A stretch of DNA of 64,000 bases, from NCBI RefSeq assembly GCF_014844035.1, contig NZ_CP062159.1:3348001-3412000 (forward strand), in the 5' to 3' direction. Below are positions 1 to 10,040 of this stretch, piece by piece (the stretch's first letter is position 1; the number at the start of each line of letters is the position of its first letter). Under the pieces are notes generated by a model, which was not told where the DNA came from, did no database searches, and worked only from the letters and a program-made list of their open reading frames with translations. Both the position numbers and the translations under genes were made by a program. Source of the DNA: Flavobacterium sp. MDT1-60. GTDB taxonomy: Bacteria > Bacteroidota > Bacteroidia > Flavobacteriales > Flavobacteriaceae.

Positions 1-266
1 TCAATTTCGTCAACTAAAGTTTTGACAACACTTCCACCGGCAACTCCTAACAATAAAATATGATCCATAGTAAGAATGGCTTTATATCCGATATTCCGTA
101 ATCCATACCTTAATATACGTTGTAAACTTCCATAAGAATAATTTGTGTTTTCAGAATCCAAAACCAATTCACCATTTGCCCATGTAACTTCGATCATTTT
201 GCTTCTTGCCGATTTTTTCTTGAAAATTTTGATTGGAATCAGATAACTAAAAAATTTTTGGATCAT
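1..266 (-). CDS. Spermidine-synthase-like methyltransferase-fold protein (N-terminal part only)
   Basis: The open frame starts at 266 and runs off the left edge, so only about 88 N-terminal residues are visible. They include the pair ENTNYSYGSLQR and a glycine-rich LLGVAGGSVVKTL segment, which resembles the nucleotide-binding start of the spermidine synthase fold used by polyamine aminopropyltransferases and by bacterial spermidine-synthase-like proteins. The recognition rests on remembered family patterns, and the catalytic residues lie outside the window. It is divergent from the acyltransferase at 333. An arginine decarboxylase lies 11 kb away, but many such orphan proteins are not true aminopropyltransferases. 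Confidence 0.6.
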   Translation of the reverse strand, partial: MIQKFFSYLIPIKIFKKKSARSKMIEVTWANGELVLDSENTNYSYGSLQRILRYGLRNIGYKAILTMDHILLLGVAGGSVVKTLVDEI

Positions 267-332
267 TTGTAAAGCTTTTATTCAAAAATACCATTTTAAA
301 TCTTTTATTTTGCATGAAATAATAAATTTTTA

Positions 333-884
333 ATGAAGAAACAGTTGTACAAATTCATCTTTTTTAAGCTGATGGGCTGGAAAATAAGAGGAATTGAAAA
401 TGCGGAAGTTAAAAAATGTGTGATGATGGTGATGCCACATACAAGTAATCATGATTTTTATTTAGGAATTTTTACTCGTGGAATTTCGGGATTAGAAATG
501 AACTGGGTTGGAAAGAAAGAATTATTCAGATTTCCTTTTGGATATTATTTCAGAAGTGTAGGAGGTGAACCTCTAGATCGTTCGGGTGGGTTGAATAAAG
601 TCGATTCAATTGCTGCAATTTTTGATCGCAAAGAAGTTTTTCGTTTAGCCGTAGCTCCAGAAGGAACCCGTAAAGAAGTAGCAGAAATTAAAAGTGGATT
701 TTATTATATTGCACTTAAAGCAAATGTGCCAATTATCCCAGTTGCTTTTGATTGGGGTAAAAAAGAAGTTAATTTAGGAAAGCCTTTTTGTCCAACAGGA
801 GATTACGAAGCCGACTTACAAATTTTGAAAAAGCATTATGATGACGTTCTGGGTAAAATTCCGCAAGATGGATTTAGGTTGTAA
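333..884 (+). CDS. 1-acyl-sn-glycerol-3-phosphate acyltransferase family protein (PlsC-like)
   Basis: This is a short (183 aa) lysophospholipid acyltransferase-family protein. The catalytic HX4D box is visible as HTSNHD (H36, D41) and the acyl-acceptor block as PEGTR (residues 109-113). Family members transfer an acyl chain to lysophosphatidic acid or related lysolipids at the inner membrane. There is no obvious N-terminal membrane helix beyond the hydrophobic start, and the compact length is common for Bacteroidota paralogues outside the main plsC. The exact acceptor cannot be told from sequence. An AT-rich leader precedes the ATG, and no convincing -7 element was found. Confidence 0.85.
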   Translation: MKKQLYKFIFFKLMGWKIRGIENAEVKKCVMMVMPHTSNHDFYLGIFTRGISGLEMNWVGKKELFRFPFGYYFRSVGGEPLDRSGGLNKVDSIAAIFDRKEVFRLAVAPEGTRKEVAEIKSGFYYIALKANVPIIPVAFDWGKKEVNLGKPFCPTGDYEADLQILKKHYDDVLGKIPQDGFRL

Positions 885-959
885 TTTTCTAGTTTTAAAC
901 AATTAAATCCAATTTAATGGTTTCATCGTAAGTATAGATAACTTTCTAAAATTATACTT

Positions 960-1967
960 ATGAAAAATCTATTTATTACATCTGCTTTTTTGATTTTATG
1001 CTTTTCATCTTGTGACAGTAATGATACAGAGAATAATGCGCCAATGCCTGAATCCACTTTAGTAACATCAAGTAATACTTCAGGAAAAATTACCTTCACC
1101 AATTTATTAGCTACTGCACCAAATGTAAAATCTTTTACAATAGCTTCTTTAGATGCCGAGGGAATTTCATATAACAGTGAAACTGATGCTGTAATTGTAG
1201 CTTCAAGAACGACAAATAAATTAGAAGTCTATTCTGGAATAAAAAATGCTCTTGCAGCGGGTACTGATAATTTAATGTTGTCCCTAAGCAGTATCACTGG
1301 TGACTTTACTAACGCCAGGGAAACTGCAGTTTCCGGAGACATAGTTGTAGTCGCACAAGATCAGCTTGCCTCTAACGGTATGATAAACAAACTTTTTGTT
1401 TATCAAAAAACAACTAATGGTTTTACATTGTTAAAAACATTTACAACTGATTTCAAACTTTGGGGAATCCACATTAACGGAAATGATTTATTTGCTGTAG
1501 CTGACCTGACAGGAGATTTAGTTTTCTTTAAGAATTTTATGACTAATGCCTCCGGAACTATTCCTGCAACAAAAAGAGTTACAATTGCGGGCTTAACACG
1601 TTCGCATGGAATTACCTACTCTTCGTCTGATGACATAATGATTTTAACAGATGTTGCAAGTGCAGCCTCAGGAACTGATGGAGGATTAATTATAATAAAA
1701 AATTTCTCAAACGTTTTTAATAAAACTGAGGCATCGGCCACGATTGCATTAATGAACCAGATTCGAATTTATGGACCAAATTCTACTCTAGGAAACCCTG
1801 TAGATGTAGCATATGATAATGCAACTCAGAAAATATATGTTGCAGAAAGATTAAATGCAGGCGGACAAGTTTTAACCTACAGTTTTCCAATGGCATCGGG
1901 TGATTTCGCCCCAATTAATGTAAGAGCAGAAGCTGGTGTTACGTCAATCTTTCTTCTCCGAAAATAA
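960..1967 (+). CDS. Surface-type lipoprotein with beta-propeller-like repeats, unknown function
   Basis: The 335-aa protein has a lipoprotein signal peptide ending FSSC, with the lipidated Cys at about residue 18. It is followed by an acidic DSNDTEN stretch, the kind of sequence that can direct lipoproteins to the cell surface in Bacteroidota. The mature part has repeated short beta-strand blocks of the form GISYNSETDAVIVASR, GIHINGNDLFAVAD, GITYSSSDDIMILTD and VDVAYDNATQKIYVAER, about 50-60 residues apart. This suggests a YncE/SMP-30-like beta-propeller. The enzyme activity or ligand is unknown. It is a single gene followed by its own terminator. Confidence 0.7.
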   Translation: MKNLFITSAFLILCFSSCDSNDTENNAPMPESTLVTSSNTSGKITFTNLLATAPNVKSFTIASLDAEGISYNSETDAVIVASRTTNKLEVYSGIKNALAAGTDNLMLSLSSITGDFTNARETAVSGDIVVVAQDQLASNGMINKLFVYQKTTNGFTLLKTFTTDFKLWGIHINGNDLFAVADLTGDLVFFKNFMTNASGTIPATKRVTIAGLTRSHGITYSSSDDIMILTDVASAASGTDGGLIIIKNFSNVFNKTEASATIALMNQIRIYGPNSTLGNPVDVAYDNATQKIYVAERLNAGGQVLTYSFPMASGDFAPINVRAEAGVTSIFLLRK

Positions 1968-2005
1968 TTTACTTTGTGTAAACTATTAAATTATCAGAAA
2001 ATATG

Positions 2006-2040
2006 CTTGGCTTCGAAATTGGAGCTAAGGATATTTTTTT
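2006..2040 (+). terminator. Rho-independent terminator after the lipoprotein gene
   Basis: Arms CTTGGCT (2006-2012) and AGCTAAG (2023-2029) form a 7-bp stem with one G-U pair, followed by GATATTTTTTTT. Confidence 0.55.
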
Positions 2041-2130
2041 TGACATAAAAAGATCTTTTTTTTCAGTTACGTGAGAATCGCTTAAATGAAAAATATTTTG
2101 AATTTTTTTTAAATATGCGAAAATTTAAAA

Positions 2131-2607
2131 TTACGGGATATATACCTTAAATGTCCCATTTTTATAAAAAAAGACAATTTTCTCAATTTCGCCTTCTGTT
2201 GAAATTAAATTTGAGTTTTTTGCTTCAACTGAATTTCTTGTTTCTGATTTTTCATCTTCCTTATAATTGATCTCAGAAAATAAATTTCCACCAATAAAAT
2301 TTTCATTTGATGAAATAGGAGCGAGAGGTTTTACAATTTCAGAAGCTATATCTTGTTTTGAATTTAAACTTTCATCTTCTGTTTTAGGAAAATTTCCTTT
2401 CCCGTTTAATATCCAATAAAGATCTACATCTGGAAAAACTTCCAAAATTTTCATTACAAAATCCAAACTAGGTTTGTTTCTGCCAGAAAGCAGGTGAGAC
2501 ATACTAGAACGCTGCACGCCAATTTTATCGGCAAAAGAAGAGGCATTTAAATTATAATAATCTAATATAATTTCAAGCCGTTTTACAAAATCATCGATGT
2601 TTACCAT
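2131..2607 (-). CDS. XRE-family helix-turn-helix transcriptional regulator
   Basis: This 158-aa protein has an N-terminal HTH_XRE domain (about residues 6-65). The motif FADKIGVQRSSMSHLLSGRNKPS is the phage-repressor-like recognition helix region, and it is followed by LDFVMKILEVFPDVDLYWILNGKG, typical of this Bacteroidota family. The C-terminal half is low complexity and ends IVFFYKNGTFKVYIP. No S24 peptidase motif is seen, so it is not a LexA/CI-type self-cleaving repressor. The gene is divergent from the M14 peptidase. Six palindromes lie in the shared 312-bp gap, one of them across its own start codon, which argues strongly for autoregulation. Confidence 0.85.
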   Translation of the reverse strand: MVNIDDFVKRLEIILDYYNLNASSFADKIGVQRSSMSHLLSGRNKPSLDFVMKILEVFPDVDLYWILNGKGNFPKTEDESLNSKQDIASEIVKPLAPISSNENFIGGNLFSEINYKEDEKSETRNSVEAKNSNLISTEGEIEKIVFFYKNGTFKVYIP

Positions 2608-2685
2608 TGTAAATTATTGTTTCAAATATCTATGTTTACAAATGTAACCAAAAGAATCTAATATAGCAATTTTACAGTTGTAAAT
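2599..2685. promoter_or_regulatory. Three operator palindromes upstream of the XRE gene
   Basis: Three 16-bp palindromes fit GTTTACNNNNGTAAAC. Site 1 is GTTTACCATTGTAAAT (2599-2614) and overlaps the XRE start codon. Site 2 is GTTTACAAATGTAACC (2634-2649). Site 3 is TTTTACAGTTGTAAAT (2670-2685). Site 2 covers the -7 element of the leftward promoter and site 3 abuts its -33 element. Assigning them to the adjacent XRE protein is inference. Confidence 0.75.
2639..2669 (-). promoter_or_regulatory. Leftward promoter of the XRE regulator
   Basis: On the minus strand, TTG (2667-2669) is followed after 20 bases by TACATTTG (2639-2646), an exact Bacteroidota TAnnTTTG -7 element. It lies inside operator site 2, so a bound repressor would block it. 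Confidence 0.65.
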
Positions 2686-2833
2686 AATCAATACGGAGCT
2701 TAATAAGGCTATATGTAGCTTTAGGTGTATATAGTTAATGTACTGATATACTGAAATTTAAACTTTATTATTTGAATTAATAACAAATGTTAATTATTAA
2801 TCTAATAAAGAACAGTTTAAACCTTAAAAAACT

Positions 2834-2906
2834 GTTTACAATTATAAATTTCTTTCTTTTTCAACTGTTTACAATTGTAAAAATAAAGATGTTTACTTTT
2901 GTAAAC
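2834..2906. promoter_or_regulatory. Three operator palindromes upstream of the M14 peptidase
   Basis: The sites are GTTTACAATTATAAAT (2834-2849), GTTTACAATTGTAAAA (2867-2882) and GTTTACTTTTGTAAAC (2891-2906). The last is a perfect GTTTAC-N4-GTAAAC palindrome. They have the same consensus as the three sites on the XRE side of the gap. The remaining stretch 2686-2833 is AT-rich and shows nothing else recognisable. Confidence 0.75.
2875..2901 (+). promoter_or_regulatory. Rightward promoter of the M14 peptidase
   Basis: TTG (2875-2877) is followed after 16 bases by TACTTTTG (2894-2901), an exact TAnnTTTG match. The -7 element sits in the operator at 2891-2906 and the -33 element in the operator at 2867-2882. 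Transcription would start close to the ATG at 2920. Confidence 0.6.
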
Positions 2907-2919
2907 TAATTAAAAGACA

Positions 2920-4074
2920 ATGAATTTAGAAGAATTATTTAGCCTATACAAAGAACAATCTATAGAAGGACGATACCTGACATTAGAACATATTCAACCT
3001 TTATTAGACAAATTAAATACTAATAATCAAGTAAAACTTATTGGTAAATCTGTTTTGGATAAACCTATATATAGCTACGAAATTGGTACAGGGGAAACTC
3101 GTATTTATCTTTGGTCGCAAATGCACGGAAACGAGAGCACAACAACTAAAGCACTTTTTGATTTTATTAATGTCCTAAACAGCGGATCAGATTTTGCTCA
3201 GAAACTGCTTCAAGTATTTACCTTTTACGCAATTCCAATTCTGAATCCTGATGGAGCAGCACTTTATACACGTGAAAATGCCAATAAAATTGACTTAAAT
3301 CGCGATTCTCAAAACCTCACTCAACCAGAAAGCAAAGTTCTAAGAGAAGTTTTTGAAACTATTAAACCACATTATTGCTTTAATCTTCATGATCAGCGCA
3401 CTATTTTTGGTGCTGGTGATACTGGGAAACCAGCAACAGTTTCGTTTTTAGCACCATCTTATAATGAAGAAAGAGAAATAAACGAAAACAGATTAAAGGC
3501 TATAAATTTAATTGCAGGACTGAATGATGTACTGCAAAAATATATTCCAGGACAAGTTGGACGTTTTGATGATTCATTCAATATCAACTGCATAGGGGAT
3601 ACTTTTCAATTTTTAGGTGTACCTACTATTTTATTTGAAGCGGGTCATTTTCCTAATGATTATGAGCGTGAGATCACTCGAAAGTTCATATTTTTCTCAC
3701 TTATTTCAAGTTTTAAATTGCTTAGCGAAAACGATTTAGTTGATAATAGAATTAATGATTATTTGAATATTTCACAAAATAAAGTGGTTTTTTATGATTT
3801 TATGTATAAAAACATCAAAATAAATTATGATGGTATCGAAATTATTACGAATTTTGTCGCACAATACAAAGAAGAATTGATTGAAAATAAGATTCACTTT
3901 AATGCCTGCATCGCTGAAGTAGGTGAATTAGAAAATTATTTTGGACATTATGAATATGACGCTCAGGGAGCAATTTATTCAGATAATCACAATAATTTTC
4001 CGAAAGTGAACGAAAAAGCAGATTTTTATTTAAATAAAAATGTTAAATTTGTTAACGGATTGATAAAAAGTTAA
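2920..4074 (+). CDS. M14-family zinc carboxypeptidase-like protein
   Basis: This 384-aa protein carries the M14 zinc site HGNE (H69, E72) and a third ligand His in FNLHDQ (H157). It also has the substrate-binding NPDGA...DLNRD block (about 109-129) and the catalytic Glu in FEAGHF (E240). No signal peptide is visible, so the protein is probably cytoplasmic, as for murein-peptide or amino-acid-conjugate processing members rather than digestive carboxypeptidases. The substrate is unknown. The C-terminal 110 residues form an extra domain of unknown role. Its promoter is overlaid by the XRE-type operators, so it is the likely controlled target of that regulator. Confidence 0.8.
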   Translation: MNLEELFSLYKEQSIEGRYLTLEHIQPLLDKLNTNNQVKLIGKSVLDKPIYSYEIGTGETRIYLWSQMHGNESTTTKALFDFINVLNSGSDFAQKLLQVFTFYAIPILNPDGAALYTRENANKIDLNRDSQNLTQPESKVLREVFETIKPHYCFNLHDQRTIFGAGDTGKPATVSFLAPSYNEEREINENRLKAINLIAGLNDVLQKYIPGQVGRFDDSFNINCIGDTFQFLGVPTILFEAGHFPNDYEREITRKFIFFSLISSFKLLSENDLVDNRINDYLNISQNKVVFYDFMYKNIKINYDGIEIITNFVAQYKEELIENKIHFNACIAEVGELENYFGHYEYDAQGAIYSDNHNNFPKVNEKADFYLNKNVKFVNGLIKS

Positions 4075-4151
4075 TTTTTATGTGAATTTGTTGTTTTTTA
4101 TATATATTTTTATACTTTGTAATAGCAATTAGTAATATTAATTAAAGAATT

Positions 4152-4631
4152 ATGAGTAAATTTCGTTTAGATGAAGTAGATCACCAGATTTTAGATATGT
4201 TAATAGACAATACGAGAGTTCCGTTTACTGACATTGCAAAAAAACTATTGATATCTGCTGGAACAGTACATGTTAGAGTAAAAAAGATGGAAGACGCCGG
4301 TATAATAATGGGATCTTCATTAGCCTTAGATTACGACAAATTAGGGTATTCATTTATTGCTTATGTGGGTGTATTCCTTAATAATACATCTCAAACAAAA
4401 TTTGTATTAGAGCGAATCAATCAAATTCCATTCGTTACCGTAGCTTCTGTAACTACAGGAAAATTTAATATTTTTTGCAAAATTAGAGCAAAAGACACTA
4501 AACACGCGAAAGAAGTTATCTTTATGATTGACGATATTGAAGGGGTTTACAGAACAGAAACTATGATTTCATTAGAGGAAAGTATTAACGATAAGAAGCG
4601 TTTGATGCATACTATTTTTAAGAATATGTAA
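4152..4631 (+). CDS. Lrp/AsnC-family transcriptional regulator
   Basis: The 159-aa protein has the classic layout: an N-terminal AsnC-type helix-turn-helix (about 5-50, LDMLIDNTRVPFTDIAKKL and TVHVRVKKMEDAGII) and a C-terminal RAM ligand-binding domain (about 70-145). These proteins sense amino acids and form dimers or octamers. It lies 77 bp after the M14 peptidase on the same strand, so co-transcription is possible. A terminator follows immediately. The ligand is not predictable. Confidence 0.9.
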   Translation: MSKFRLDEVDHQILDMLIDNTRVPFTDIAKKLLISAGTVHVRVKKMEDAGIIMGSSLALDYDKLGYSFIAYVGVFLNNTSQTKFVLERINQIPFVTVASVTTGKFNIFCKIRAKDTKHAKEVIFMIDDIEGVYRTETMISLEESINDKKRLMHTIFKNM

Positions 4632-4663
4632 TCTTTTCTTGAATGCTATATTAAAATATAACC

Positions 4664-4688
4664 TCAAGTTTATTCTTGGGGTTTTTTT
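4664..4688 (+). terminator. Rho-independent terminator after the Lrp gene
   Basis: CTCAAG (4664-4669) pairs with CTTGGG (4676-4681, one G-U pair) around a 6-base loop, followed by seven T. Confidence 0.7.
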
Positions 4689-4721
4689 ATGACTAATTAA
4701 CCAACCAACTACAACACGATT

Positions 4722-7307
4722 ATGTACACGTTGCCAAAAATTGAACGTTTTAATCAAGATGTTCTCTCAAAATATCACATTTATAATAGTGTTTTCATAA
4801 CATTACCCTTCGATTCTATTGATAATACGGGAGTTTTACTGCCGTTATTCACAGAAACATGCGAAACGGGGTTTAGAAAACAAGAAACACCAAAAGAAAT
4901 TTTTGATTTCTTTTCAAATAAATACTTAAATAACGCTTCTGAGAAAGAAAAAATCGACTTAATGTTTCGATTTATTCAATATATAGAACGTCAGATCGTA
5001 TTGTTTGATGCTATTGAAGACGCCGCTTTTCCTGCCGTTAATAATATGGAAGGACGCGGATCTCTGCGCGATATCAAAGAAAAAACGGATGCTAAGGAGA
5101 AAAATGAGGAATTAGTTGAATTTCTTGAAAATTTTAATGTTAGAACGGTTCTAACAGCGCATCCAACACAATTCTACCCTGGACCAGTTTTAGGAATTAT
5201 AAATGATTTAACGGATGCTATTCGTCTAAATGATTTATTAAAAATAAAACAATTACTGGCACAATTAGGAAAGACACCTTTTATTCAGAATGAAAAGCCA
5301 AATCCATATGACGAGGCGGTTAGTTTGATCTGGTATTTAGAAAATGTATTTTATGCCACTTCCGGAGAAATTGTTCATTATTTGCAAAAAAACATCCTTC
5401 ATGGAAGCGCTATTAAAAACCAATTAATCAAACTTGGTTTCTGGCCAGGAGGTGATCGTGACGGAAATCCTTTTGTGACAACTGAAATCACTTTAAAAGT
5501 AGCAGAACGTTTGCGTACCTCTATTTTGAAGTGTTATTATGTTGAAATGAGAAACTTAAAGAGAAAGTTAACTTTTTCAGGTGTAGATACTTTGGTAGCC
5601 GAACTTGAACATAAACTTTACCGTTCCGTTTTTTATTCTAAAGGTGAAATTTACATTACTTTAGAAGAATTATTAGCACAATTAAATAAAATCAGGACTA
5701 TCATTATCGAAAAACACCAATCGCTATATTTAGACGAATTGGAAGCCTTTTTGGTAAAAATCAATTTATTTGGTTTTCATTTTGCAACTTTAGATATTCG
5801 TCAGAATAGTAAAATTCATGACGCTGTTTTTAAAGATGTTGTGAATTATTATTTAAATTCAGGTTCAGACATATTTCCTCAAAATTATTTCGAATTATCA
5901 GAGACAGAAAAATTAGATGTTTTGTCTAAGGTTAAAGGACAATTAAATCCTGCTCATTTTAATGATGAAATTACAAGATCAACATTAGAATCTGTACAAG
6001 CTATTAAAACCATTCAGCAACGCAATGGTGAATTTGGTGCCAATCGTTATATTATTAGTAATAACGAAAGTGCATTAAACGTAATGGAAACTTTCGCCAT
6101 GATTCGTCTGAATAATTGGGAGAATCCATCTGTTGATATCATTCCGCTTTTTGAATCGGTTGACGATTTGCAGAATGCGCATGAAATTATGGAGCAGTTA
6201 TATACCAATCCTGAATACTCTAAGCATTTACAGGAAAGAGGTAACAAACAAACTATTATGCTTGGTTTCTCTGATGGAACTAAAGATGGTGGTTATTTGA
6301 TGGCCAACTGGAGTATTTACCAGGCTAAAATTTCATTGACTGAAATCTCACGAAAATATGGTATTCACGCTATTTTCTTTGATGGACGTGGTGGACCTCC
6401 GGCTCGTGGAGGTGGAAAAACGCATAAATTTTATGCATCACTTGGTCCAAAAATTGAAAATAATGAGATCCAGATTACGGTTCAGGGACAAACAATCAGT
6501 TCAAACTTTGGAACTTTGGATTCTTGTCGTTATAATATCGAAAACTTATTAAGTGCAGGTGTTACCAATCAGGTTTTTAGTAAAGAAGATAATGAATTGA
6601 ATGCTGATGAGACTCAGATTTTGACGCAATTGGCTGATTTAGGATATGAGAAATATTTAAGTTTTAAGAATCATCCGAAATTCATTCCGTATTTAGAAAA
6701 GATGAGTACTTTGAAATATTACTCTAAAACAAATATCGGAAGCCGCCCGTCAAAAAGAAGCAAATCAGAATCTTTAGATTTTGCTGATTTAAGAGCAATT
6801 CCATTTGTTGGCTCTTGGAGCCAGTTAAAACAAAATGTACCCGGTTTCTTTGGAGTAGGTTCTGCTTTAAAATATTTTGAAGAAAGTGGTCAATGGGATA
6901 AAGTGAGTGATTTATACCATAATTCATTGTTCTTTAAAACGTTATTAGAAAACAGTATGATGTCATTGGCAAAATCATTTTTACCATTAACAGCGTATAT
7001 GCGAAATGATCCAGAGTTTGGTGAATTCTGGCAAATCATCTACGATGAATTTTCAGAAACAAAACGTCTTCTACTTAAAATTGCGGGCCATAAAACCTTA
7101 ATGGAAAATTATCCTGATGGTATAGCTTCAATTCAGATAAGAGAGCGTATTGTGCTGCCATTGTTGACAATACAACAATATGCGTTATTAAGAATTAACG
7201 AATTGAATAATGACAAAAGCGGTAATGAAGAGTTGATTAAAGTATATGAAAAAATCGTAACAAGATCTCTTTTCGGAAATACAAATGCGAGTCGTAACTC
7301 TGCTTAA
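4722..7307 (+). CDS. ppc: Phosphoenolpyruvate carboxylase
   Basis: This enzyme carboxylates PEP with bicarbonate to oxaloacetate, refilling the TCA cycle. The 861-aa sequence has all main blocks: VLTAHPTQ with the catalytic His (H147), WPGGDRDGNP (about 241-250), GFSDGTKDGGYLMANW and the glycine-rich FFDGRGGPPARGGG loop. The late blocks SRPSKRS and RAIPFVGSWSQ are also present. The C-terminus reads NTNASRNSA, a Bacteroidota variant of the usual QNTG end. It stands alone between a terminator and the DinB gene 40 bp downstream, with which it may form an operon. Confidence 0.95.
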   Translation: MYTLPKIERFNQDVLSKYHIYNSVFITLPFDSIDNTGVLLPLFTETCETGFRKQETPKEIFDFFSNKYLNNASEKEKIDLMFRFIQYIERQIVLFDAIEDAAFPAVNNMEGRGSLRDIKEKTDAKEKNEELVEFLENFNVRTVLTAHPTQFYPGPVLGIINDLTDAIRLNDLLKIKQLLAQLGKTPFIQNEKPNPYDEAVSLIWYLENVFYATSGEIVHYLQKNILHGSAIKNQLIKLGFWPGGDRDGNPFVTTEITLKVAERLRTSILKCYYVEMRNLKRKLTFSGVDTLVAELEHKLYRSVFYSKGEIYITLEELLAQLNKIRTIIIEKHQSLYLDELEAFLVKINLFGFHFATLDIRQNSKIHDAVFKDVVNYYLNSGSDIFPQNYFELSETEKLDVLSKVKGQLNPAHFNDEITRSTLESVQAIKTIQQRNGEFGANRYIISNNESALNVMETFAMIRLNNWENPSVDIIPLFESVDDLQNAHEIMEQLYTNPEYSKHLQERGNKQTIMLGFSDGTKDGGYLMANWSIYQAKISLTEISRKYGIHAIFFDGRGGPPARGGGKTHKFYASLGPKIENNEIQITVQGQTISSNFGTLDSCRYNIENLLSAGVTNQVFSKEDNELNADETQILTQLADLGYEKYLSFKNHPKFIPYLEKMSTLKYYSKTNIGSRPSKRSKSESLDFADLRAIPFVGSWSQLKQNVPGFFGVGSALKYFEESGQWDKVSDLYHNSLFFKTLLENSMMSLAKSFLPLTAYMRNDPEFGEFWQIIYDEFSETKRLLLKIAGHKTLMENYPDGIASIQIRERIVLPLLTIQQYALLRINELNNDKSGNEELIKVYEKIVTRSLFGNTNASRNSA

Positions 7308-7347
7308 GATTAGATAATTTAAATTTATTTTATAAAAAATAGTAAAA

Positions 7348-7863
7348 ATGAATTCAAGTCAATTATTAGAAAATGAGTATTCAGGTGGATTTGCAACTTA
7401 TATTAAAGAAGCCGGAGAGGTTAATTTGATCGAAGAATTAGAAATTTCACTTCATGATTTTATCAGGTTTGTTCAAAATATTCCGATGGATAAATTTGAT
7501 TATCGATATGCAGAAGGAAAGTGGACCATCAAAGATATTATTCAGCATCTTATAGATTGCGAACGTATTTTTGCATATCGTGCATTACGATTTTCAAGAA
7601 ATGACAAAACTCCTTTGGCTAGTTTTGAAGAAGATGATTACGCAAACAGCACCAACTCAAACAGTAGAAGTATTCAGGATTTATTAACTGAACTTTCTGC
7701 GTTAAGACATTCAACGTTATTATTATACAAAAGTTTATCTGAAGAACAGCTTAAACGTATTGGAACAGCTTCTAATATTCAGATTTCTGTTCGAGCATTA
7801 GGTTTTGTTATCATAGGGCATCAAAAGCATCATCAAAATGTTTTTCAGGAGAGATATTTATAA
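7348..7863 (+). CDS. DinB-superfamily protein
   Basis: This 171-aa four-helix DinB/YfiT-type protein carries candidate metal-ligand histidines in KDIIQHLIDCE and in GHQKHHQNV, the usual three-His layout. Members include thiol transferases (bacillithiol or mycothiol dependent) and damage-inducible proteins of unknown role. The WTIKDIIQHLIDCERIFAYR segment is characteristic. It is 40 bp downstream of ppc and shares a convergent terminator with recQ. A second DinB protein is encoded at 48205-48645. Confidence 0.85.
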   Translation: MNSSQLLENEYSGGFATYIKEAGEVNLIEELEISLHDFIRFVQNIPMDKFDYRYAEGKWTIKDIIQHLIDCERIFAYRALRFSRNDKTPLASFEEDDYANSTNSNSRSIQDLLTELSALRHSTLLLYKSLSEEQLKRIGTASNIQISVRALGFVIIGHQKHHQNVFQERYL

Positions 7864-7887
7864 TCTTTAAAATATTTAGCATAAAAA

Positions 7888-7913
7888 AATCCTGTGAATA
7901 ATTTCACAGGATT
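7888..7913. terminator. Bidirectional terminator between the DinB and recQ genes
   Basis: An 11-bp perfect stem, AATCCTGTGAA / TTCACAGGATT, has a 4-base loop and is flanked by A and T runs. It serves both convergent genes. Confidence 0.85.
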
Positions 7914-7931
7914 TTTTGTTTTGACACAAGA

Positions 7932-10040
7932 CTATTTATTCCTTTCAACAATAGCGAGACCAAAGCGTATCTTATCATAAGATAATTTTTCTTCAAAATG
8001 GTCGTAATAAGGTTTTAGTGCTGTTGGATACTCCAGTACTATTTGTGCTTTATGCAATTGTTTAACTTCATCCTCAGTAATAAATGAACTTAGATCTATG
8101 TCTTCACCATCTACATATAGTTTTGTCAGGTGTGAAACAATTGTTGTTTGCCCTAAATTTCGTTTTCCCGCAATTTCTTCAATGCTGTTTCCGTTTTTAA
8201 AAAGTTCTAAAGTTGTTTTATAAGTATTGCTTTCTTTTTTAACTTTAGTATTTGCTTTTTTTACTTTTTCATAATAAATAATTGCATCTATAAATTCAGA
8301 GCCATATTTTTCGAGTTTAGCTTTTCCAACACCTTCAATTGCAAGGAATTCTTCGTCGCTCATTGGTCGTAGCGTTTCCATTTGTCTTAAAGCGGCATCG
8401 CTAAAAATTACATAGGCAGGAACTTCTTCATCTTTAGCAATCTCGTAACGTAATTTTCGAAGTATTTCAAAAAGAGAACTTTTAGTTGTTTTAGCTTTTG
8501 GTTCTTTGATTTCGCTTTTATCAATTACTTTTTTAACAACTGTGTTTAATTTTACTTTTTCGCCTTCGAACAAAACTTTTTTAGCAAAAGGAGTTAGTAA
8601 GATTTTGTTGTGCTGATGAAAGGCAATCTCACAATAACCCAAATTAATTAGTTGAATTAAATATTGATTCCAATCGTACCATGAAATATCAGCACCAATT
8701 CCGTATGTTTTTAAGTTTTGATAATTTTTTTCGTAGATATACGCATTTTTTGAGCCTCTTAAAAAATCTACAATTACAGCCAAAGGTTCAGATTCCTGTA
8801 AGCGACTAATAGCTGATAAAGCTTTTTGCGCGAGAATCGTACCATCGAAAAAAGTTGGAGGATTTTTACAAATATCGCAGTTACCGCAATTCTCTTTAAC
8901 CAATTCACCAAAATAGGAGAGTAGAATTTTTCTTCTACAGCTCAATGCATCGGCATATTGTTTCATTCTTTCCAACTTTGCCAGCTGAACATCAGAATTC
9001 AACCCTTCAGAAGCAAACTTCTGTAACTGAATCACATCGGCATAACTTTCAAACAAAATAGTTTCTGCAGGCAAGCCATCACGGCCGGCACGGCCAATTT
9101 CCTGATAATAGCCTTCAATATTTTTGGGTAAATTATAATGAATCACCCAACGAACATTCGATTTATCAATTCCCATTCCGAAAGCAATTGTAGCACAAAC
9201 CACCTGACAATCATCATTTATAAATTCATCTTGTGTTTTGGCTCGCAGTTTATTATCTAAACCTGCATGATATGCTTTTGCCGTAATTCCCTGCTTTTGT
9301 AATTTATCAGCAAGTTCCTCAGTTGTCTTTCTGCTTAGGCAATAAATTATCCCTGATTCATTTGGTTTATTTTCGACAAAATCTATAATTTGTTTTACAC
9401 GATCAAGCGCCGGGCGAACTTCTAAACTTAAATTCTTCCTGTCAAATGAAGCTATAAATGTTTTCGGGTTTTTTAATTTGAGTTGTTTTGTAATATCGGT
9501 ACGCGTTGCTTTATCAGCTGTTGCGGTCAAAGCTAAAACCGGAGTAGAAGGGAAGCGGCTCTTTAAATATCCTAAATTAGTGTAAGCAGGTCTGAAATCA
9601 TGTCCCCAGGATGAAATACAATGTGCTTCGTCAATTGCGATAAGGCTAATAGTCAGTTCATTAAAAACAACATCCAGATAAGATAAACTTTCAGGAGCAA
9701 TATAAACCAGTTTAAAATTATTCGATTTTAAATTATCAATATAAAATTGCTGTTCCTCGCCAGATTGACTGCTATTGATATAACAGGCATTAATTCCGTT
9801 AGTTTTTAAACTATCAACCTGATCTTTCATTAACGCGATTAGTGGAGAAATGACAATAGTAATTCCAGGCAGAACTAAAGCAGGCAGTTGAAAACATATC
9901 GATTTTCCGCCACCTGTAGGCATAATTGCCAAAGTATCCTGACCGGTAAGTATTGTATTGATTATTGTTTCCTGATTTGGACGAAATTTTTCAAATCCAA
10001 AATTCTCTTTTAGTTTGGCGTGTAATAGTTCTGTGTTCAT
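7932..10040 (-). CDS. recQ: ATP-dependent DNA helicase RecQ
   Basis: This 3'-5' DNA helicase acts in recombination and fork repair. In order, it has Walker A (PTGGGKS, about 41-47), the DEAH box (about 137-140) in LIAIDEAH, and helicase motif VI in YYQEIGRAGRDG. The RQC zinc-binding cysteines follow (CRRKILLSYFGE...NCGNCDICKNPP), then an HRDC domain (about 520-600) with the helix-hairpin EGVGKAKLEKYG, and a C-terminal helical tail. The length (702 aa) fits Bacteroidota RecQ. It is monocistronic and convergent with the DinB gene. Confidence 0.95.
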   Translation of the reverse strand: MNTELLHAKLKENFGFEKFRPNQETIINTILTGQDTLAIMPTGGGKSICFQLPALVLPGITIVISPLIALMKDQVDSLKTNGINACYINSSQSGEEQQFYIDNLKSNNFKLVYIAPESLSYLDVVFNELTISLIAIDEAHCISSWGHDFRPAYTNLGYLKSRFPSTPVLALTATADKATRTDITKQLKLKNPKTFIASFDRKNLSLEVRPALDRVKQIIDFVENKPNESGIIYCLSRKTTEELADKLQKQGITAKAYHAGLDNKLRAKTQDEFINDDCQVVCATIAFGMGIDKSNVRWVIHYNLPKNIEGYYQEIGRAGRDGLPAETILFESYADVIQLQKFASEGLNSDVQLAKLERMKQYADALSCRRKILLSYFGELVKENCGNCDICKNPPTFFDGTILAQKALSAISRLQESEPLAVIVDFLRGSKNAYIYEKNYQNLKTYGIGADISWYDWNQYLIQLINLGYCEIAFHQHNKILLTPFAKKVLFEGEKVKLNTVVKKVIDKSEIKEPKAKTTKSSLFEILRKLRYEIAKDEEVPAYVIFSDAALRQMETLRPMSDEEFLAIEGVGKAKLEKYGSEFIDAIIYYEKVKKANTKVKKESNTYKTTLELFKNGNSIEEIAGKRNLGQTTIVSHLTKLYVDGEDIDLSSFITEDEVKQLHKAQIVLEYPTALKPYYDHFEEKLSYDKIRFGLAIVERNK

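Follow-up and report, generated by a model that had tools for sequence, protein, structure and literature searches.

A probable operator array between an XRE-type regulator gene and an M14 carboxypeptidase gene in Flavobacterium, and a possible autorepression loop

In Flavobacterium sp. MDT1-60, an XRE-type regulator gene and an M14 peptidase gene diverge from a gap of 312 bp, start codon to start codon, that carries a series of similar palindromes. The layout raises the question of which protein the palindromes serve, and how sites on both sides of the gap might act on the two promoters. The window analysed here is a stretch of 64 kb within a single-contig genome of 5.56 Mb. Comparison with related genomes points, with a probability of about 0.6 for the explanation as a whole, to a bend-assisted autorepression loop that would combine XRE autorepression, repression of M14 and looping of the gap.

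The XRE-type repressor gene occupies positions 2131–2607 on the minus strand and encodes a protein of 158 residues. The protein is sequentially composed of a helix-turn-helix (HTH) domain (residues 1–73), a linker and a short C-terminal β hairpin (residues 144–156). The HTH domain matches Pfam HTH_3 with an E value of 3.9e-6 and 27.2 bits, above the curated cut-off of 23, and only generic HTH labels exceed their cut-offs in Pfam and NCBIfam profile searches. An AlphaFold2 model with a mean pLDDT of 68 contains five helices (residues 4–68), a low-confidence linker and the hairpin; the HTH blocks score 81–87 and the C terminus 84. In an alignment of 61 sequences, conservation is concentrated in the HTH domain and the hairpin, and the linker is variable. 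The protein ranges from 118 to 166 residues across 60 family loci. Its fold matches include C.BclI, C.AhdI, SinR and 434 repressor, each with an E value above 0.001. An XRE match is present in 285 of 299 sampled Flavobacteriaceae genomes.

The M14 gene (positions 2920–4074, plus strand) encodes 384 residues and matches Pfam Peptidase_M14 with an E value of 9.2e-12. Residues H69, E72, R118, N127, R128 and H157 are kept in all 61 aligned sequences and E240 in 60 of 61. We take these residues to be the HxxE...H zinc ligands, the NR motif and the catalytic glutamate, and with their conservation in 60–61 of 61 sequences the protein is assigned as a zinc carboxypeptidase. Assignment as an MpaA murein tripeptide amidase was rejected, the score of 28.1 bits being below the curated cut-off of 157. 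The structure model of the M14 protein is unusable (mean pLDDT 40.5). No signal peptide is apparent in the sequence as judged by eye, and the enzyme is probably cytosolic. A longer M14 paralogue of 469–499 codons occurs at eight loci of family genomes (L155–L162), with no sites upstream.

Downstream of M14 lies an AsnC/Lrp-type gene (positions 4152–4631), which adjoins M14 in 76 of 78 Flavobacterium loci. The M14–asnC gap (window 4075–4151) is 77 bp long in 73 of these 76 loci, and something in it seems constrained; the asnC–pepC gap is less uniform, at 86–100 bp in 75 Flavobacterium loci. On the other side of XRE, positions 960–1967 hold a gene of 335 residues that appears lipoprotein-like by eye and has no Pfam or NCBIfam match. 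A similar gene, again judged by eye, lies immediately before M14 in two genomes that lack XRE.

Six probable operators and their conservation

Six sites matching GTTTACNNNNGTAAAC with up to two mismatches lie between positions 2599 and 2906. Elsewhere in the window there are three more, and the window as a whole yields 3.54 matches on average when shuffled. A matrix derived from 89 family loci, only one of which (L113) is of the same genus and from which the window itself was left out, ranks exactly these six sites as the window's top six. The six palindromes described by the first-pass annotation are thus real, with 1, 1, 2, 2, 1 and 0 mismatches, respectively. Its best copy is indeed perfect, but it is the only perfect one and two of the others carry two mismatches. 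This copy, operator 6, is also the sole perfect GTTTACNNNNGTAAAC in the genome.

Operators 1–3 form the cluster on the XRE side. Operator 1 (2599–2614, one mismatch) covers the XRE start codon at 2607–2605 on the minus strand, confirming the overlap noted before. Operator 2 (2634–2649, one mismatch) contains the −7 element of the XRE promoter, TACATTTG, at 2646–2639 on the minus strand. Operator 3 (2670–2685, two mismatches) adjoins a likely −33 TTG of the XRE promoter at 2667–2669 on the minus strand, 20 bp from the −7 element, which was read from the sequence by a promoter consensus that we assume. Operators 1 and 2 are present in 78 of 78 Flavobacterium loci, and operator 3, the least conserved, in 55.

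Operators 4–6 form the cluster on the M14 side. Operator 4 (2834–2849) has two mismatches and is present in 75 of 78 loci. Operator 5 (2867–2882, one mismatch) lies over the presumed −33 region of the M14 promoter, as placed by position, and operator 6 (2891–2906) contains the M14 −7 element, TACTTTTG, at 2894–2901 on the plus strand; both are present in all 78 loci. The two −7 elements are exact copies of TAnnTTTG, each pointing at its gene and each inside a site, as had been proposed. Across the family, 57 of 89 loci have a TAnnTTTG within an XRE-side operator and 66 have one within an M14-side operator.

Because the start codon lies inside operator 1, residues 2–3 of the XRE protein are written by one half-site of the operator. 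The protein starts with MVN in 80 of 80 Flavobacterium loci; among 89 family loci, 76 have MVN, MIN or MLN, some of the remaining rows having a misplaced start.

A seventh near-copy (TTTAC-N5-GTAAAC) outside the gap does exist, although it spans 1968–1983 and not 1969–1983. It directly follows the stop codon of the gene at 960–1967, and its spacing is off by one base. It was rejected as a conserved site: in a rough scan, the best match downstream of XRE has one mismatch in 10, two in 54 and three in 14 of 78 Flavobacterium loci.

The genus sample comprised the best 80 of at least 525 confirmed relatives, all from Flavobacterium or Flavobacteriaceae records. M14 is divergent from XRE in 78 of these 80 loci, with 310–313 bp from start codon to start codon; the remaining two contigs stop short of M14 by about 130 and 270 bp. 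By the 89-locus matrix, each operator stays within one base of a single layout, and conservation of the sites in orthologous gaps, as the first-pass annotation had predicted, ranges from 55 to 78 of 78 loci per site. The fixed length of the gap is weakened as special evidence, since the M14–asnC gap is equally fixed.

The family sample of 99 loci was made up of 29 fetched from the XRE search besides the window's own, 30 from weak-match genomes and 40 from further down the match list. Of these loci, 96 have one or more TTTACNNNNGTAAA sites with no more than one mismatch, the exceptions being L182, L188 and L196. The 99 regions contain 301 sites, whereas their dinucleotide shuffles have a mean of 9.2 and a maximum of 17. 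A divergent M14 accompanies XRE in 89 of the loci, 88 of which have sites.

Sites within the same mismatch limit extend beyond the family. In other families of the order, they occur in 20 of 22 loci (42 sites vs 2.0 in shuffles; two loci without a site), 20 of the 22 loci having been hand-picked to span families. Outside the order, 24 of the best class-level matches were taken; 15 of them have sites before XRE (38 vs 1.6 in shuffles) and nine have none. No M14 match was found in the 1.5-kb flanks of any of the 24 class-level loci. The expectation that the motif concentrates beside XRE orthologues, and in front of few other genes, is therefore borne out at all three levels, at counts far above shuffles. 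At six loci outside Flavobacteriales (L331, L335, L336, L337, L340 and L341), members of the same repressor family stand beside quite different genes, with operators kept.

The central element and a possible loop

The middle of the gap had been called featureless. It instead contains a conserved element of 36 bp at 2717–2752 on the minus strand. Conserved blocks are already seen in the middle of an alignment of 79 Flavobacterium gaps. An ab initio search of 71 family gap middles, which replaced a hand-made pattern, yielded the 36-bp motif TgTTTATCAGTTATTTAAAtattTTTATaTAAAgTa with a log-likelihood of 575; two shuffled sets, for which 8 starts were used instead of 15, gave 122 and 130. Positions 2717–2752 are the window's best place for the motif on both strands, at 16.6 bits. 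Places on the other strand of the gap score 12.7 and 12.4 bits and the best place outside the gap 10.4. Across Flavobacterium, the top-scoring place of a locus falls within the gap in 73 of 78 cases.

The element contains an exact IHF consensus, WATCARNNNNTTR (as TATCAGTACATTA), at 2736–2748 on the minus strand. The consensus is the published one (PMC8421141). Among the 71 family middles, exact matches number 20 on the XRE strand and 3 on the other, compared with a mean of 1.7 and a maximum of 5 in shuffles. The core of the family element matches exactly in 19 of 71 cases, with one mismatch in 28 and with two or more in 24. With 15 exact copies across the 64-kb window, the consensus counts for little on its own. 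The genome has three matches to PF00216 (HU/IHF), one of them partial.

The positions of the operators relative to the element core were compared in 60 loci. These were obtained from the 89 loci with M14 by dropping 18 with a gap outside 250–420 bp and 11 of the remaining 71 with an element below 12 bits. The operator centres form a comb with a best period of 11.25–11.5 bp. On the M14 side its teeth lie near −53.5, −64, −75.5, −85.5, −95.5, −107.5, −119.5, −130.5, −143.5, −154.5 and −165, and on the XRE side near +59, +69, +81.5, +93.5, +103, +115.5 and +128.5. The operator near +93 is absent in a clade of eight.

Fixed spacings of 24 and 34–35 bp between neighbouring operators account for part of the comb, so shifts of whole clusters are its informative part. 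The outer M14-side operator, assigned in 51 of the 60 loci, lies at 143.5 bp (±1) in 26, at 154.5 in 16 and elsewhere in nine. Single loci have it at 128.5, 130.5, 134.5, 140.5, 141.5, 151.5, 164.5, 176.5 and 188.5 bp, and some of these positions are out of step. A quick M14 tree, with 21 of 57 inner branches unresolved, implies at least eight interchanges between the 143.5 and 154.5 states.

When nearest relatives were paired, 9 of 13 changes in element-to-operator distance larger than 2 bp differed by at most 1 bp from a multiple of 11 (M14 side, 7 of 10; XRE side, 2 of 3), by a criterion set after the comb had been seen and counted by hand. For the control distance from operator to M14 start, itself bimodal, the figure was 2 of 11 (Fisher p 0.019). 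A script with its own windows of 9–12 and 20–24 bp gave 6 of 10 and 3 of 3, vs 1 of 11 for the control. Random shifts of whole modes reached the observed periodicity in 3.5% of trials (0.035). The phasing statistics are moderate and post hoc.

From these comparisons we infer binding, repression, looping, bending, a bridge and a signal, arranged as follows. The gap would be the autoregulatory region of the XRE repressor, whose dimers would bind palindromes with the centre TTTACAATTGTAAA on both sides. The −7 element of the XRE promoter lies in operator 2 and that of the M14 promoter in operator 6, so binding would shut both promoters, and operator 1 over the start codon would add an extra block after the promoter. 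A small DNA loop would bring the two operator clusters together, and a bend at the central element, most likely introduced by an HU/IHF-type protein, would favour it. The C-terminal hairpins of the repressor, on their flexible linkers, are the likely bridge. Such a local switch would keep repressor and carboxypeptidase low until some signal releases repression. For cooperation of the two clusters through a bend-assisted loop in particular, we would give even odds.

XRE dimers might instead bind the clusters independently and block the two divergent promoters with no loop, the central element being a site for another regulator of XRE, either an activator or an architectural protein. The site data fit such simple autorepression equally. 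The element lies 94 bp from the operator at the XRE −7 element in 26 of 53 loci, a near-fixed distance that an upstream activator site would also keep. Its conserved right half, TTTATnTAAAGT, lies outside the IHF consensus and could be bound by another protein. We nevertheless regard independent binding as less likely than the loop. The distances between operators and element move mostly in steps near 11 bp, and distal operators persist in loci that have no obvious divergent gene.

Five class-level loci, L333, L334, L336, L337 and L340, keep distal operators in this way. Their genomes are unannotated here, and frames were read mechanically. In L333, the gene upstream is oriented towards XRE, with its end at −284; operators lie at −272, −255 and −198 and also near the start, and a scan of 700 bp shows no divergent frame of at least 40 codons. 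In L334, the closest frame of at least 90 codons is co-directional and ends 1 kb upstream, and a divergent frame of 52 codons starts at −483. Operators of L334 lie at −247 and −192, the latter weak, and its element lies at −138 with 25.5 bits. In L336, L337 and L340, a co-directional upstream gene ends near −200 and operators lie between −140 and −177. L336 has a divergent frame of 42 codons inside the gap; the longer frames of L337 and L340 are antisense to the upstream gene. L333 and L335 carry full operator arrays without a central element.

On the simplest reading, the distal sites would be an auxiliary cluster for XRE's own promoter, and the M14-side sites may serve more than the peptidase gene. 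A wider form of the bend-assisted loop is tentatively suggested. An XRE repressor with a linker-tethered hairpin would have folded its own promoter around an HU/IHF-type bend since early in Bacteroidia, with spacing kept in helical-turn steps of about 11–11.5 bp. The loop would then predate the link to M14, which would have joined in Flavobacteriales.

The protein that probably acts on the sites

The sites follow XRE and not M14, as they fall to chance level without XRE and are kept with XRE where no M14 is near. Of the 299 family genomes, 14 have no XRE match and three have only marginal ones; an M14 relative is present in 13 of these 17. The best loci of these 13 provided 11 usable M14 upstream regions, nine from genomes without an XRE match and two from marginal ones. 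These 11 regions contain a single site, with one mismatch at −312, vs 0.8 in shuffles, and the other ten have none. Two Flavobacterium genomes without XRE keep M14 at 63–65% identity; one has no site and the other a single one-mismatch site.

The second of these Flavobacterium genomes, which also lacks the operator array, retains at locus L287 a 17-residue stretch (raw coordinates 2829–2879) that is 53% identical to the XRE C terminus (E value 2.7e-4 in a search of two loci). This suggests that the repressor decayed in place and that the array was lost with it.

The operators lie over the XRE gene's own promoter and are conserved with the gene, as in an autoregulated repressor. The pattern of sites with and without XRE makes it very likely that the XRE protein binds the sites and represses its own gene. 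The protein probably represses M14 as well in Flavobacteriales, and this predicted control of M14 is a feature of that order.

The first-pass annotation had named chance frequency of the palindrome across the genome as a ground for refutation. Such a frequency is literally found: 25 places match GTTTACNNNNGTAAAC with one mismatch at most, four of them in the gap, vs 37 for a reversed control, and TTTACNNNNGTAAA at 38 places, also with four in the gap, vs 42. Yet this is expected of a dedicated local operator, and the chance level elsewhere in the genome points to a local switch. The six gap sites rank 1, 2, 3, 6, 7 and 9 in the genome by a sequence model that included these sites and scored 150 of 12,818 first-look candidates.

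A regulon in the window's genome is not supported, the motif being at or below control outside the gap and the best outside places having E values of at least 0.19. Six of eight outside places inspected are inside open frames of at least 60 codons. One operator-like site (G000:C1:4149939-4149954; E 0.19) lies 37 bp before a gene that reads as aldo-keto-reductase-like; it is a single unsupported candidate and possibly due to chance. In 80 family genomes, TTTACANNTGTAAA occurs 188 times, with 0 to 9 copies per genome, vs 61 for the reversed control. Gap regions hold 0.66 copies each, which explains only part of the excess, and the excess extends to genomes without XRE. A few further targets may exist in other family genomes; no wider regulon is seen in the window's genome.

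A regulator other than XRE, for example the AsnC/Lrp-type protein encoded at 4152–4631, is an improbable owner of the palindromes. The steady proximity of its gene to M14 in Flavobacterium would suit it, XRE binding itself being deduced, and TTTACANNTGTAAA still numbers 11, vs 3 for the control, in five family genomes without an XRE match. Against it, the regions upstream of M14 have no more sites than chance in genomes lacking XRE, sites persist with XRE where the flank has no M14, and XRE's own start codon lies inside an operator. That the AT-rich gap is merely undiverged, by chance or shared ancestry, can be dismissed despite its near-fixed length in Flavobacterium, because the middle columns of the gap alignment diverge while the sites stay, and family members in which M14 identity is mostly 40–53% still carry about three sites each.

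Related systems and implications

The proposed loop resembles several known systems in part. In the gal operon repressosome of E. coli, formed by GalR and HU, two operators are looped by repressor contacts and an architectural protein bends the DNA between them, acting on a local target. The switch proposed for the XRE–M14 gap would share the local target, the loop and the bend between operators. However, gal uses a LacI-type repressor and two single operators, whereas the array has an XRE repressor, three sites per side, an IHF-type consensus and a proposed loop.

Lambda CI binds clusters of three operators at divergent promoters, makes linker and C-terminal contacts and regulates its own gene. 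CI proteins of the lambda and 434 type have the same type of HTH fold, 434 repressor being among the weak sequence and fold matches of XRE. In contrast, no CI C-terminal domain is predicted in XRE, which has a long low-confidence linker and a short hairpin, and its gene is chromosomal and present in nearly all sampled family genomes.

Restriction-modification C proteins act on their own promoters and, like SinR, are small regulators of the XRE fold. The XRE protein is larger than these regulators, and its gap has six spaced operators and a central element. No restriction-modification gene was recognised, by reading, among the eight frames of at least 80 codons in window positions 1–8000.

The period of the comb is close to that of the lac repressor loop, for which two in vivo data sets are fitted by a spacing dependence of 11.08 and 11.60 bp per turn (PMC1762422). 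The lac values were measured, whereas the comb is an evolutionary pattern with moderate statistics. A literature search, with most subscription papers outside its scope, found nothing on this XRE regulator or on such a loop in Bacteroidota.

For a regulator that is near-universal in the sampled Flavobacteriaceae, the array provides a likely operator and target gene along with a mechanism that can be tested. Even without a loop, the gap is a well-defined and deeply conserved local switch beside a carboxypeptidase. If the loop does exist, the locus would provide an example of repression by looping in Bacteroidota and, through its natural variation in spacing, an experiment on DNA's helical repeat in vivo. 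Should the ancient-loop reading also hold, genome comparison alone would record that repeat, at about 11–11.5 bp.
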